From contig NZ_JAJNCX010000006.1 of assembly GCF_021026315.1 (NCBI RefSeq), forward strand, positions 62,001-126,000: a stretch of 64,000 nt of DNA, read 5' to 3'. Made by a program: the position numbers and the translations under genes. This stretch comes from Rhizobium sp. C4 (GTDB lineage Bacteria; Pseudomonadota; Alphaproteobacteria; Rhizobiales; Rhizobiaceae). The notes under the pieces were generated by a model. The model was not told the DNA's origin. It worked only from the letters and a program-made list of their open reading frames with translations, and made no database searches. This document shows positions 22,068 through 24,893 of the stretch, one piece after another (within the stretch, counting starts at the first letter, position 1; each line of letters begins with the position of its first letter).

Positions 22068-22988
22068 TCAGTCCGGAAGGAGGCCCGAAATGACCAGCCC
22101 CAGCGCCGTGACCAAAGCACCCACCCAGATCGTCAGGCCGACCCAGCCATGACCGATCAGGCCTTCAAACAGGATGATGAAGGAGGGCGTCAGATAGCCG
22201 TAAGACAGCGTCTTCGACGCCGGCAGCCGCATAGAGGCATATTGCAGCAGCATGAAGGTGACGGCCGTCGTTGCCACCGCGAGATAGAGGATCGCGACCC
22301 AGACTTCCGCCGGAAATGACGTCAGATCGGTATGGATGAGCGCCGGAATGCCGGGGATCATCAGCCAGGCAGCGGTGGCCGCCACCGCCCAGAAGCCGAC
22401 AAAGATCGGCGGCTCGCCCCGGCTGAACAGCCTGAGCAGCGGCGCATAGGCCGCATGGCAGACGACACCGATGAAATAGATCGCCTCGCCCCGGCCGACA
22501 TCAAACCCGAGAATGGCGCTGATATCGCCGCGAAAGATCACCCAGACCGACCCGATGGCCGCCACGACGAGGCTGACCAGCACCGCCGGCTTGGTATGCT
22601 GGCGCATGAGAAACCATGCAAACCCCGCCGAAATCAGCGGCATCAGCGTGAAGACCGCCCCCGTTGCCACCGGCGAGGTGAATTCCAGCGCCGTGAACAT
22701 CGTGAACATGTAGACGGCCATCAAGAGCCCCAGCACGACATAGCGCCACGGCTCCTTCGGGATCGTGAGCTTCACCTTCATGACCTGCGTGGCAAACACC
22801 CACATGACGCCGACCGACAGAATGTAGCGCAGCGCATTGATCGCCGCCGACGGCGCATATTTCGCCGCAATGCCGCCCAGCGAAAACGAACCGGAAATCA
22901 GTAGCGCAAAAGACAGCATCGCCAGATGCGCCATCAGCTTCTCGCGGCCCGTGGCATGGGCATTATGGGCGGTCTTGACTTGGGTCAT
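22068..22988 (-). CDS. EamA/DMT-family transporter
   Basis: The 306-residue product has ten hydrophobic segments in two EamA repeats (first about residues 20-145, second about 165-300), each with the glycine- and proline-rich pattern of drug/metabolite transporters. It is probably an inner-membrane metabolite exporter. A 227-bp gap separates its start from the DUF2892-sigma gene on the other strand, so the two are divergently transcribed. Confidence 0.88.
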   Translation of the reverse strand: MTQVKTAHNAHATGREKLMAHLAMLSFALLISGSFSLGGIAAKYAPSAAINALRYILSVGVMWVFATQVMKVKLTIPKEPWRYVVLGLLMAVYMFTMFTALEFTSPVATGAVFTLMPLISAGFAWFLMRQHTKPAVLVSLVVAAIGSVWVIFRGDISAILGFDVGRGEAIYFIGVVCHAAYAPLLRLFSRGEPPIFVGFWAVAATAAWLMIPGIPALIHTDLTSFPAEVWVAILYLAVATTAVTFMLLQYASMRLPASKTLSYGYLTPSFIILFEGLIGHGWVGLTIWVGALVTALGLVISGLLPD

Positions 22989-23178
22989 GTGGCGGACTCG
23001 GACTTTTCTATCTGTAAGTCAGAGCTTTTCACGATGCCGGCTGCATTTCCAACAGATAATGGTGAGGCAGGCGCACATTTGTTGATCGGTGCCCGCTGAC
23101 AGGTCAGCCACAAATTTCCATCTCAAAAAATTCACAAAACCCGCGAATCCTTTTGGTCCCTCGCCGCCTCTTTATCGA

Positions 23179-23195
23179 CAGGACGATCCGTCCTG
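23179..23195. promoter_or_regulatory. GC-rich inverted repeat in the leader of the sigma fusion gene
   Basis: Perfect 7-bp arms CAGGACG and CGTCCTG with a 3-nt spacer, ending 7 bp before the AAGGAGG ribosome binding site. Could be an operator or an RNA hairpin affecting initiation. Confidence 0.4.
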
Positions 23196-23215: not shown

Positions 23216-23941
23216 ATGGCATTCTACCGCAATAACATCGGACGCACGCAGCAGGCGGTGCGCATTGTGCTGGGGGCCGCAATAGTCGTTCTGGGGCTCG
23301 TCATGCTGCCGGGCCTGTGGGCCTGGCTCGCGGCCGCATCCGGGATCGGCATGGCGCTCACCGGCTTCATCGGCTGGTGCCCGGCCTGCGCCGTCGCGGG
23401 CATCGGCAAGGGGGGAAAGGTCATGAATGCAGGCATCGTCCCCCACGAAACCTTCGAGGCCGCGCAACGCGGCGATCAGGCCGCGATCCTCACGCTACTG
23501 GAACGAACACAGCCCGACATTCGCCGCTATGCACGCGCCTCGTGCCGCACGTCCTCCGATATCGATGACGCCACACAGGAGGTCCTCTGGCTTCTCTCCC
23601 GCCATGTGGGCGCCATCCGTGCCTTTGCGGCCCTCTCCGGCTGGCTGTTCAAGGTGGTACAGCGCACCTGCCTGAAGCTCGCCCGCGACGTCGGCCTGAT
23701 CGCCAATGACGACGACGCGCTGGAACGAACCCTTGCCGCCCGGCAGGAAAGCGAGTTGCGCCTCGATCTCGCCGCCGCCTTCGAGGCGCTGCCGCAATCC
23801 TATCGCGAGGTCGCGGTCATGCGCGACCTTCACGAAATGACGATCGATGAAATTGCCGCAGCCCTCGGCCTTTCAAGGCAGGCTGTCAAGGCAAGGCTGC
23901 ATCGCGCACGCCTGCTGCTGCGCGAATATCTGACGAGGTGA
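23216..23941 (+). CDS. DUF2892 membrane domain fused to an ECF-like sigma factor
   Basis: Residues 1-68 form a complete DUF2892 (YgaP-like) module: FYRNNIGRTQQAVRIVLGAA, two helices and a Cys pair in GWCPACAVAGIG. Residues from about 70 are a sigma factor with region 2 (IDDATQEVLWLLSRHVGAIR, then LSGWLFKVVQRTCLKLARD) and region 4 (EALPQSYREVAVMRDLHEMT, then LSRQAVKARLHRARLLL). Start 23216 has AAGGAGG upstream. An in-frame ATG at 23423 at the domain junction has its own purine-rich site (GGGGGGAAAGG), so a free 172-residue sigma factor may also be made. An AhpD-like gene follows 4 bp later. Confidence 0.8.
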   Translation: MAFYRNNIGRTQQAVRIVLGAAIVVLGLVMLPGLWAWLAAASGIGMALTGFIGWCPACAVAGIGKGGKVMNAGIVPHETFEAAQRGDQAAILTLLERTQPDIRRYARASCRTSSDIDDATQEVLWLLSRHVGAIRAFAALSGWLFKVVQRTCLKLARDVGLIANDDDALERTLAARQESELRLDLAAAFEALPQSYREVAVMRDLHEMTIDEIAAALGLSRQAVKARLHRARLLLREYLTR

Positions 23942-23945
23942 GATC

Positions 23946-24287
23946 ATGAGCGACTATCAACGCCCCGGAGACCTCGCAACCGTCTCGCGCTTTGCCGCAC
24001 TCGCCCCGACCGAGGCCAAGGCATTCCTCGCCTTCAACCACGCCTGCGAACGCGACGACGGGACAATCCCGCGCAAGTATCGCGAGTTGATTTCGCTCGC
24101 CGTAGCACTGACCACGCAGTGCGCCTACTGCCTCGACGTCCACGCCAAAGCCGCCGCCAAGGCCGGAGCGACCCGCGAAGAACTGGCCGAAACCGCCATG
24201 ATCGCCGCCGCCGTTCGCGCCGGCGGGACCTTGGGCCACGCACTGATGGCGCTGCGGTTGTTTGAGGAACAAGTACCGCGCCCCTGA
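23946..24287 (+). CDS. AhpD-like / carboxymuconolactone decarboxylase family protein
   Basis: The 113-residue protein has the alkylhydroperoxidase CxxC motif (TTQCAYCLDVHAKAAAKAG), in which two cysteines and a His form a redox centre. It resembles single-domain AhpD-like peroxidases more than protocatechuate-pathway decarboxylases. It starts 4 bp after the sigma fusion gene and so is cotranscribed. Genes of this family are frequent partners of ECF sigma factors, suggesting a peroxide or redox response. Confidence 0.88.
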   Translation: MSDYQRPGDLATVSRFAALAPTEAKAFLAFNHACERDDGTIPRKYRELISLAVALTTQCAYCLDVHAKAAAKAGATREELAETAMIAAAVRAGGTLGHALMALRLFEEQVPRP

Positions 24288-24395: not shown

Positions 24396-24893
24396 TCAGG
24401 ATTTGGCCGGGGAGAGCGGATCGAGATCCGGGAACATGGCAGCGTCGCGCGTGACCATGATCGAGGACATATCCAGGATCTTGACCGCGTGGGTAAAGAT
24501 GTGGCCTTCGAAATTCATCTTTATGACATCGGGAGACTTGCCGGATTTGTAGCTTTCGGGGGAGTTTTGTTCCGCGAGCGCCAGATAGGCGTAAATGGAG
24601 TCGGTCGCGCCCATGCTCGCGGTCAGCTGGGTCATCCACTCCTGATCGGTCAGCCCCTCCGGTCTGTCCGGAGAATTCAGTTTCTCGAACGCGGATCGAA
24701 CAGCATCGCTCGCATCACTGAGGCTGGTCTCCTTCACATCATGCCAGATCATGCTGGCGACCTCTTCCGGGCTCGCTTCGATCGGCGATTTGGGATCCAG
24801 ACTGATCATGTCCGAGAAACTCTGTCGCGGTTGTAAAACGCGTGCAGGATTTTCCGGTCGATAAGAATTGGGCGAAGTCTTGCCAACATCCAT
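24396..24893 (-). CDS. hypothetical protein
   Basis: The 165-residue product is soluble, has no signal peptide or membrane segment and no motif I recognise. The N-terminal 40 residues are proline- and serine-rich (YRPENPARVLQPRQSFSDMI); the rest looks helical. It stands alone between the AhpD-like gene and the preA terminator, with 100 bp on either side. Its lower GC content than its neighbours suggests recent acquisition. Confidence 0.55.
   Translation of the reverse strand: MDVGKTSPNSYRPENPARVLQPRQSFSDMISLDPKSPIEASPEEVASMIWHDVKETSLSDASDAVRSAFEKLNSPDRPEGLTDQEWMTQLTASMGATDSIYAYLALAEQNSPESYKSGKSPDVIKMNFEGHIFTHAVKILDMSSIMVTRDAAMFPDLDPLSPAKS

Follow-up and report, generated by a model that had tools for sequence, protein, structure and literature searches.

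A DUF2892 membrane module joined in frame to an ECF-like sigma factor in Rhizobium sp. C4 is most likely an incidental form of a conserved gene pair with a predicted promoter of its own

A single open frame in Rhizobium sp. C4 joins a small membrane module to an ECF-like sigma factor, which raises the question of whether this organism makes a membrane-tethered sigma factor or whether the joined frame is an incidental form of two genes that are ordinarily separate. We addressed this question with the frame itself and with its relatives, taking as our window the whole 64,000-nucleotide stretch of DNA in which the frame lies (Table 1). Our analysis supports the fusion being most likely incidental and points to a pair of closely linked genes, preceded by a predicted promoter, as the conserved unit.

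Table 1. Positions in the window of the fused frame, its parts, and the surrounding features
Feature	Positions	Strand	Remarks
EamA-family transporter gene, divergent	22068..22988	-	neighbor, thought to lie outside the unit
Predicted cognate ECF promoter GAATCC-N17-CTCTT	23145..23172	+	-35 at 23145-23150, -10 at 23168-23172; from conservation
Inverted repeat CAGGACG-ATC-CGTCCTG at expected transcript start	23179..23195	+	between -10 and ribosome-binding site
Ribosome-binding site (AAGGAGG) ahead of the membrane-protein start codon	23203..23209	+	direct reading
Fused ORF, DUF2892/YgaP-like hairpin and ECF-like sigma factor	23216..23941	+	241 aa
PF11127 YgaP-like transmembrane module	23228..23407	+	fusion residues 5-64; helices 10-30 and 34-52 (profile match; AlphaFold2)
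CPAC motif (C55, C58) after second helix	23378..23389	+	CPxC in sigma-linked proteins
G6 run at junction	23410..23415	+	G5 in syntenic relative, where first-gene TGA overlaps sigma ATG (ATGA)
ECF-like sigma factor frame from its own ATG	23423..23941	+	172 aa; same start as separate gene in L005 and L033
Sigma Cys41 (fusion Cys110), region 2	23543..23545	+	47/47; control ECF sequences 1/12
Sigma Cys83 (fusion Cys152), region 2	23669..23671	+	47/47; control ECF sequences 7/12
Carboxymuconolactone decarboxylase (CMD)/AhpD-core protein	23946..24287	+	113 aa; CAYC...H
165-aa ORF after CMD gene	24396-24893	-	no Pfam match to E 0.01

Direct reading of the window confirmed one open frame from ATG to TGA. 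The preliminary description had recognized in it a two-helix DUF2892 module with a cysteine pair, followed by complete sigma regions 2 and 4, and profile searches bore out both parts. PF11127 (YgaP-like_TM) matched the N-terminal module over the whole domain (3.5e-15; 56.3 bits against a cutoff of 25.3), as expected of the YgaP-like (DUF2892) family. Sigma70_r2 (fusion residues 94-158; 4e-7) and Sigma70_r4_2 (residues 183-234; 5e-14) both matched above their Pfam cutoffs, and TIGR02937 scored 73.9 bits on the sigma part against a cutoff of 42.9. Sigma70_r3 was not among the matches of the protein listed to an E value of 0.01. Thus, the protein combines regions 2 and 4 and lacks region 3, as in ECF (group 4) sigma factors. 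An AlphaFold2 model of the fusion (mean pLDDT 72.0; pTM 0.43) placed the two membrane helices in blocks of pLDDT 90-95 and the junction (residues 62-71) below 50, and with this pTM and this junction the model is too uncertain to indicate contact between the sigma factor and the hairpin.

The same description had placed a second ATG with its own ribosome-binding site at the domain junction and an AhpD-like gene 4 bp downstream of the frame, and both are there. The internal ATG (23423) is preceded by GGGGGGAAAGG at 23410-23420, and the downstream gene encodes a CMD/AhpD-like protein that matches PF02627 and the AhpD core domain TIGR00778 (69.6 bits against a cutoff of 27.8). Assignment of this protein to the AhpD subfamily TIGR00777 was rejected (26.3 bits against a cutoff of 191.95). 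A mechanical ORF list opens the fused frame earlier, at TTG 23153; we preferred ATG 23216 because AAGGAGG precedes it and because of the position of the upstream promoter element described below.

To place the fusion among its relatives, we gathered loci with a query that contained the membrane module, so loci with linked genes are favored in the sample. An initial search of the genome collection gave 28 loci, and 6 of 41 plasmid records were fetched. After five loci (L039, L040, L057, L058, and L059) were left out as second copies of places already counted, 47 distinct fetched loci had a sigma factor of this kind, and 43 of these, the window counted, had a hairpin gene no more than 200 nt upstream (L034 and L038, two strains of one species, are both within the 43). 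The hairpin and sigma genes were separate at 41 of the 43 loci. Start codons were assigned automatically by proximity to the aligned position, and on that basis 21 of the separate pairs overlapped by 14, 8, or 4 nt, and the other 20 were spaced by 0 to 16 nt. These findings support the close link between the DUF2892 and sigma modules that had been proposed for the window, and public annotation places a "DUF2892 domain-containing protein" beside a "sigma-70 family RNA polymerase sigma factor." They do not support tethering as a conserved stand-in for an anti-sigma factor. The preliminary description had itself named relatives with separate, overlapping genes as the observation that would speak against the fusion, and the loci that we compared come close to that.

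The pair occurs in Pseudomonadota and Chloroflexota. With the whole fusion as query, the sigma factor was detected in two of six genomes of the genus, the window's own genome included, and in one of 151 genomes of a family draw, which was again the window's own (both at E 1e-20). At E 1e-15, it was detected in at least 15 of 397 genomes of an order draw and in at least 12 of 398 genomes of a phylum draw; these two draws share genomes, and both counts are lower bounds since at most seven first-look candidates were scored per genome.

Only one of the other 42 loci shares the joined state of the window, and it does so through a separate event. This locus, L049 (G343:C1:1294888-1295610), is a second in-frame DUF2892-sigma fusion and lies in a one-contig genome of the same order. 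Compared with L052 and L053, which are close to it among the fetched loci and keep separate genes, L049 has two bases fewer within the CPxC codons, which shifts the frame and removes the second cysteine. Because different small frameshifts made the fusions in the window and in L049, we consider them independent. A conserved fused architecture was therefore rejected (2 of 43 loci, by different events).

The origin of the fusion in the window was apparent from the nearest relative that we found, Rhizobium sp. C1 (L005), whose locus is syntenic and whose sigma part and hairpin are 93.6% and 78.8% identical to those of the window, respectively. By blastn, the flanks are largely collinear between the window's contig (298 kb) and 400 kb of the relative's contig, with 48 pieces of more than 500 bases covering 187,872 bases at a mean identity of 84.8%. 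In Rhizobium sp. C1, the hairpin and sigma factor are encoded in different frames as two genes overlapping by ATGA. The intervening stop codon that had been proposed as a check in close relatives is thus present, with TGA ending the first gene at the sigma ATG. The junction reads AAGGGGGGAAAGG in the window versus AAGGGGGAAAG in the relative. The window has one G more; therefore, the stop of the hairpin gene falls out of frame and reading runs on into the sigma gene. Since a G5AAAG run lies at the same place before the separate sigma ATG of Rhizobium sp. C1, the G-run site in the window is a ribosome-binding site inherited from a sigma gene that stood on its own.

A difference of one base in a G6 homopolymer, set against a syntenic relative and 40 other loci with separate genes, is what an assembly or sequencing error would produce, in which case Rhizobium sp. 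C4 would have the ordinary arrangement of two genes that overlap. We regard such an error as a serious possibility, at well below even odds. The contig does not show a flood of homopolymer differences: among the 187,872 aligned bases, coding and non-coding together, we counted 15 non-triplet indels that stood alone between conserved flanks; 13 involved a single base, and by eye only the junction falls in a run of five or more. This count indicates that homopolymer trouble is not widespread in the contig, and we rejected assembly-wide trouble of this kind as an easy explanation; a single error keeps the odds given above. A protein-level comparison of the contig with the relative gave 9 and 8 apparent frameshift cases by direction (one ORF appearing twice), many of which are antisense shadow frames as suggested by codon-position G+C. 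Also weighing against an error are the state of the assembly, which is 99.97% complete in 50 contigs, and the occurrence of the other fusion in a genome of one contig. If the extra G is real, ribosomes starting at 23216 would produce the membrane-joined protein, placing some of the sigma factor at the membrane, and the old start at 23423 could still give the free form; the fusion would then be a recent change with no evolved mechanism behind it. Free sigma factor is likely to be made from 23423, and a tethered product is possible only with a real extra G. It is a further step to suppose that regulation acts on the joined protein as a genuine membrane-tethered sigma factor, with the tether and the internal start yielding two products. 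The open frame with both domains intact, the retained internal ATG and its site, the second in-frame fusion, and published ECF factors joined to membrane parts (PMC8999054, in excerpt) are in keeping with this proposal. However, each of the two fused loci owes its state to its own frameshift, the CPxC motif is destroyed in one of them, and we found no sign of selection keeping the joined state, which is absent from the other 41 loci. We therefore consider a regulated tethered form improbable.

Membrane-joined ECF factors described in the excerpted text of PMC8999054 include ECF36, with three to four N-terminal helices and DUF2275, IutY (ECF243), and ECF48, ECF52, and ECF53. The window protein resembles them in having sigma regions 2 and 4 and membrane helices in one chain, which is the trait of membrane-regulator-fused ECF factors. 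Unlike those proteins as described there, its membrane module is PF11127 and its joined state hangs on one base, and the conservation of the fusion within a lineage that marks such factors was not found here (2 of 43 loci). Even a genuine fusion in the window would resemble known proteins, since membrane-joined ECF factors are already in print (PMC8999054, in excerpt).

The separate pairs revealed a cysteine motif that distinguishes the sigma-linked membrane proteins. CPxC was found in 42 of the 43 sigma-linked hairpins, with the frameshifted L049 as the sole exception. As a control, we took the 30 best-scoring PF11127 matches from 121 genomes of the order, of which 29 were readable; lower-scoring matches, including sigma-linked members and a shorter class, lie outside this control. 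None of these 29 ordinary proteins has CPxC: 28 have CPxY and one has CPAN, and most have a later cysteine. L111, outside the 29 counted, reads CPAY in its frame as printed. CPxY is therefore typical of ordinary members by our count rather than by any published definition, and the window, with CPAC, departs from it. In the window's genome, a second PF11127 protein has CPAA. If the N terminus is inside, as the positive charge suggests, the CPxC motif would face the cytoplasm.

Two cysteines in region 2 of the sigma factor are invariant across the 47 loci (Table 1). We compared them with 12 control ECF sequences from L002-L004 and L025-L032, the latter being distant ECF factors without a hairpin. 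The frequencies of cysteine at the two positions in the controls mark Cys83 as ordinary and Cys41 as distinctive, and none of the 12 controls had both. The conserved CPxC motif, the two invariant sigma cysteines, and the CMD gene that follows the pair in some relatives make a redox response of the unit, as initially suggested for the window, possible.

A conserved element upstream of the pair further supports a regulatory unit. In the window, GAATCC-N17-CTCTT ends 43 nt ahead of ATG 23216. The strict form was found upstream at 26 of the 43 pair loci (mean 0.0 and maximum 0 in 1000 single-base shuffles) and a loose form, GAA[TC]C[CG]-N17-CTC followed by TT, TA, TC, or CT, at 37 of the 43 (mean 0.013 and maximum 1 in 1000 single-base shuffles). 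Variants were recognizable by eye at the six loci without a loose match. When any spacer of 14 to 20 nt was allowed, the strict hexamers occurred in 27 of the 43 upstream stretches versus none in 539,580 nt elsewhere in the same loci. The consensus of the 37 loci is cGCGAATCC-n-ttt-N8-g-n-cgCCTCTT, and the element precedes pairs in Rhizobiaceae, in Massilia/Duganella-type betaproteobacteria, in Bowmanella (as a variant), and in Chloroflexi. By conservation alone, we recognize this element as a candidate promoter and infer that it is read by this sigma factor. Activation of its own operon by the sigma factor would follow from that assignment.

Genome-wide counts suggest that the element belongs chiefly to this locus in Rhizobium sp. 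C4. The exact N17 site occurs only once in the window's genome, at this locus, and sites with at most one mismatch number 37 versus 24 in a backward control; near matches thus leave room for a possible small wider regulon. Across 19 genomes with the sigma factor, we counted 28 exact sites versus 13 for the backward control, of which 8 belong to the pair itself or to a lone sigma gene and 20 lie away from the pair. All seven GAATCCTTT-N14-CTCTT sites in these 19 genomes are among those 8, with six before the pair and one before the lone sigma gene of L063. In 400 kb of Rhizobium sp. C1 (G152), there are two strict and four loose sites, one of them being the pair's own.

Between the element and the membrane-protein start, the inverted repeat at the expected transcript start may be an operator or a 5' hairpin. 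Its arms differ together between the window and Rhizobium sp. C1, with a matching change on both. Of 37 leaders, 19 have a stem of at least 5, compared with a mean of 6.3 and a maximum of 15 over 300 shuffles; for a minimum stem of 6, the figures are 8 leaders versus a mean of 1.5 and a maximum of 7.

We also analyzed what surrounds the pair at other loci. Behind the pair, the window, Rhizobium sp. C1, and L043 have a CMD gene that matches along almost all of its length, and L042 and L044 have one that matches in part. No CMD gene was detected after the remaining pairs; the sequence fetched for many of them included only 1.5 kb of flanking DNA. After the pair in Massilia sp. Root418 (L012:4717-5529), we noted by eye an ORF for a Crp/Fnr-type-like regulator. 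Four of the 47 sigma factors, at L014, L024, L037, and L063, lack a hairpin gene within 200 nt upstream. Since L014 and L063 keep the promoter element without it, the membrane protein is not required in every lineage. The sigma factor of L037 (NZ_CP092394.1, 9970-10497), on a Klebsiella IncR plasmid, is a lone relative 49% identical over 61% of the query; it also occurs on other enterobacterial plasmids and adjoins a gene of the carboxymuconolactone decarboxylase family and a haloacid dehalogenase gene. At L063 (G790:C1:151764-152361), we recognized by eye, after the element and the lone sigma gene, a Buf-like protein of EGKCG type and then a DUF692-like gene. This pairing of a relative of the sigma factor with a precursor-like protein and a DUF692-like gene recalls the gig/rpoQ and bufferin operons (PMC10304878 and PMC12452194, in excerpt), and L063 is possibly a bufferin operon under this sigma clade. 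In the window, by contrast, we saw neither kind of gene next to the pair.

Considering these results together, we favor, at a probability of about 0.6, an autoregulated ECF sigma operon in which a small CPxC membrane partner would regulate the sigma factor in response to thiol or metal state and the fusion in the window is incidental. The operon would be ordered as promoter, two-helix CPxC membrane protein, closely coupled sigma factor, and AhpD/CMD-like protein. In this model, the sigma factor would read GAATCC-N17-CTCTT and switch on its own operon and, judged by exact sites, little else in the window's genome. Made ahead of the sigma factor and coupled to it, the membrane protein would most likely keep that factor in check at the membrane, and oxidation of the CPxC motif or metal binding, perhaps together with the sigma cysteines, would bring about release. 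The CMD protein would be the likely effector in Rhizobium sp. C4. The arrangement could instead reflect translational coupling only, with the DUF2892 protein being an effector, for example in thiol or sulfur handling, that is made with an autoactivating sigma factor and does not regulate it. We hold this to be a plausible but less favored explanation. The sigma factors of L014 and L063, with the element and no membrane gene, fit it, as do the would-be effectors encoded after the sigma gene of L063. On the other side, one would expect an autoactivating sigma factor with no inhibitor to lock on; the membrane gene stands first and close at the 41 separate loci in two phyla, and the CPxC motif went unseen in the 29 ordinary PF11127 members. 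An operon regulated by its CPxC membrane partner thus remains our preferred reading.

Several known systems provide points of comparison for such an operon. SigF/NrsF is one of them, with its DUF1109 protein and its cysteines. EcfF/OsrA is an ECF sigma factor with a co-transcribed membrane anti-sigma factor (PMC3420878, in excerpt). In the available accounts of both systems, as at our locus, a small membrane partner is encoded with the sigma factor, autoregulation occurs or is proposed, and cysteines are suspected as the sensor. The partner at our locus differs from those in these accounts: it belongs to PF11127, has two helices and a CPxC motif in ~70 aa, and has its gene ahead of the sigma gene, and its anti-sigma role is putative. 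ECF41 factors carry a C-terminal SnoaL-like extension; unlike them, the sigma part of the window stops at region 4 without such an extension. The likeness to ECF41 lies in the CMD gene adjoining the ECF factor, as sigma factors of that group are encoded beside carboxymuconolactone decarboxylase genes (PMC3426412, in excerpt).

We did not find the DUF2892-ECF pair described in the literature searched, which left out the 2021 ECF reclassification, and for that reason the clade may already be a numbered ECF group. Nor did this literature link a GAATCC promoter motif to an ECF sigma factor. One paper that names DUF2892 and a sigma factor concerns, in its excerpted text, a different and unrelated gene (PMC6710368). 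We tentatively propose, as a minority expectation, that the sigma-linked CPxC subfamily of DUF2892/YgaP-like proteins may be an undescribed class of minimal (~70-aa, two-helix) membrane sensor and anti-sigma factor, controlling a cysteine-bearing ECF clade, found in both Pseudomonadota and Chloroflexota, for which GAATCC-N17-CTCTT would be the one conserved promoter ahead of its own operon.

The fusion in Rhizobium sp. C4 is chiefly cautionary: one base within a G run is enough to make two coupled genes pass for a new domain architecture. Of greater interest is the pair itself, with its own conserved promoter element and cysteines. If the model holds true, a role could be given to one subfamily of a widespread small membrane domain, and the sigma clade would offer a ready test in the form of its promoter and a 70-residue partner.
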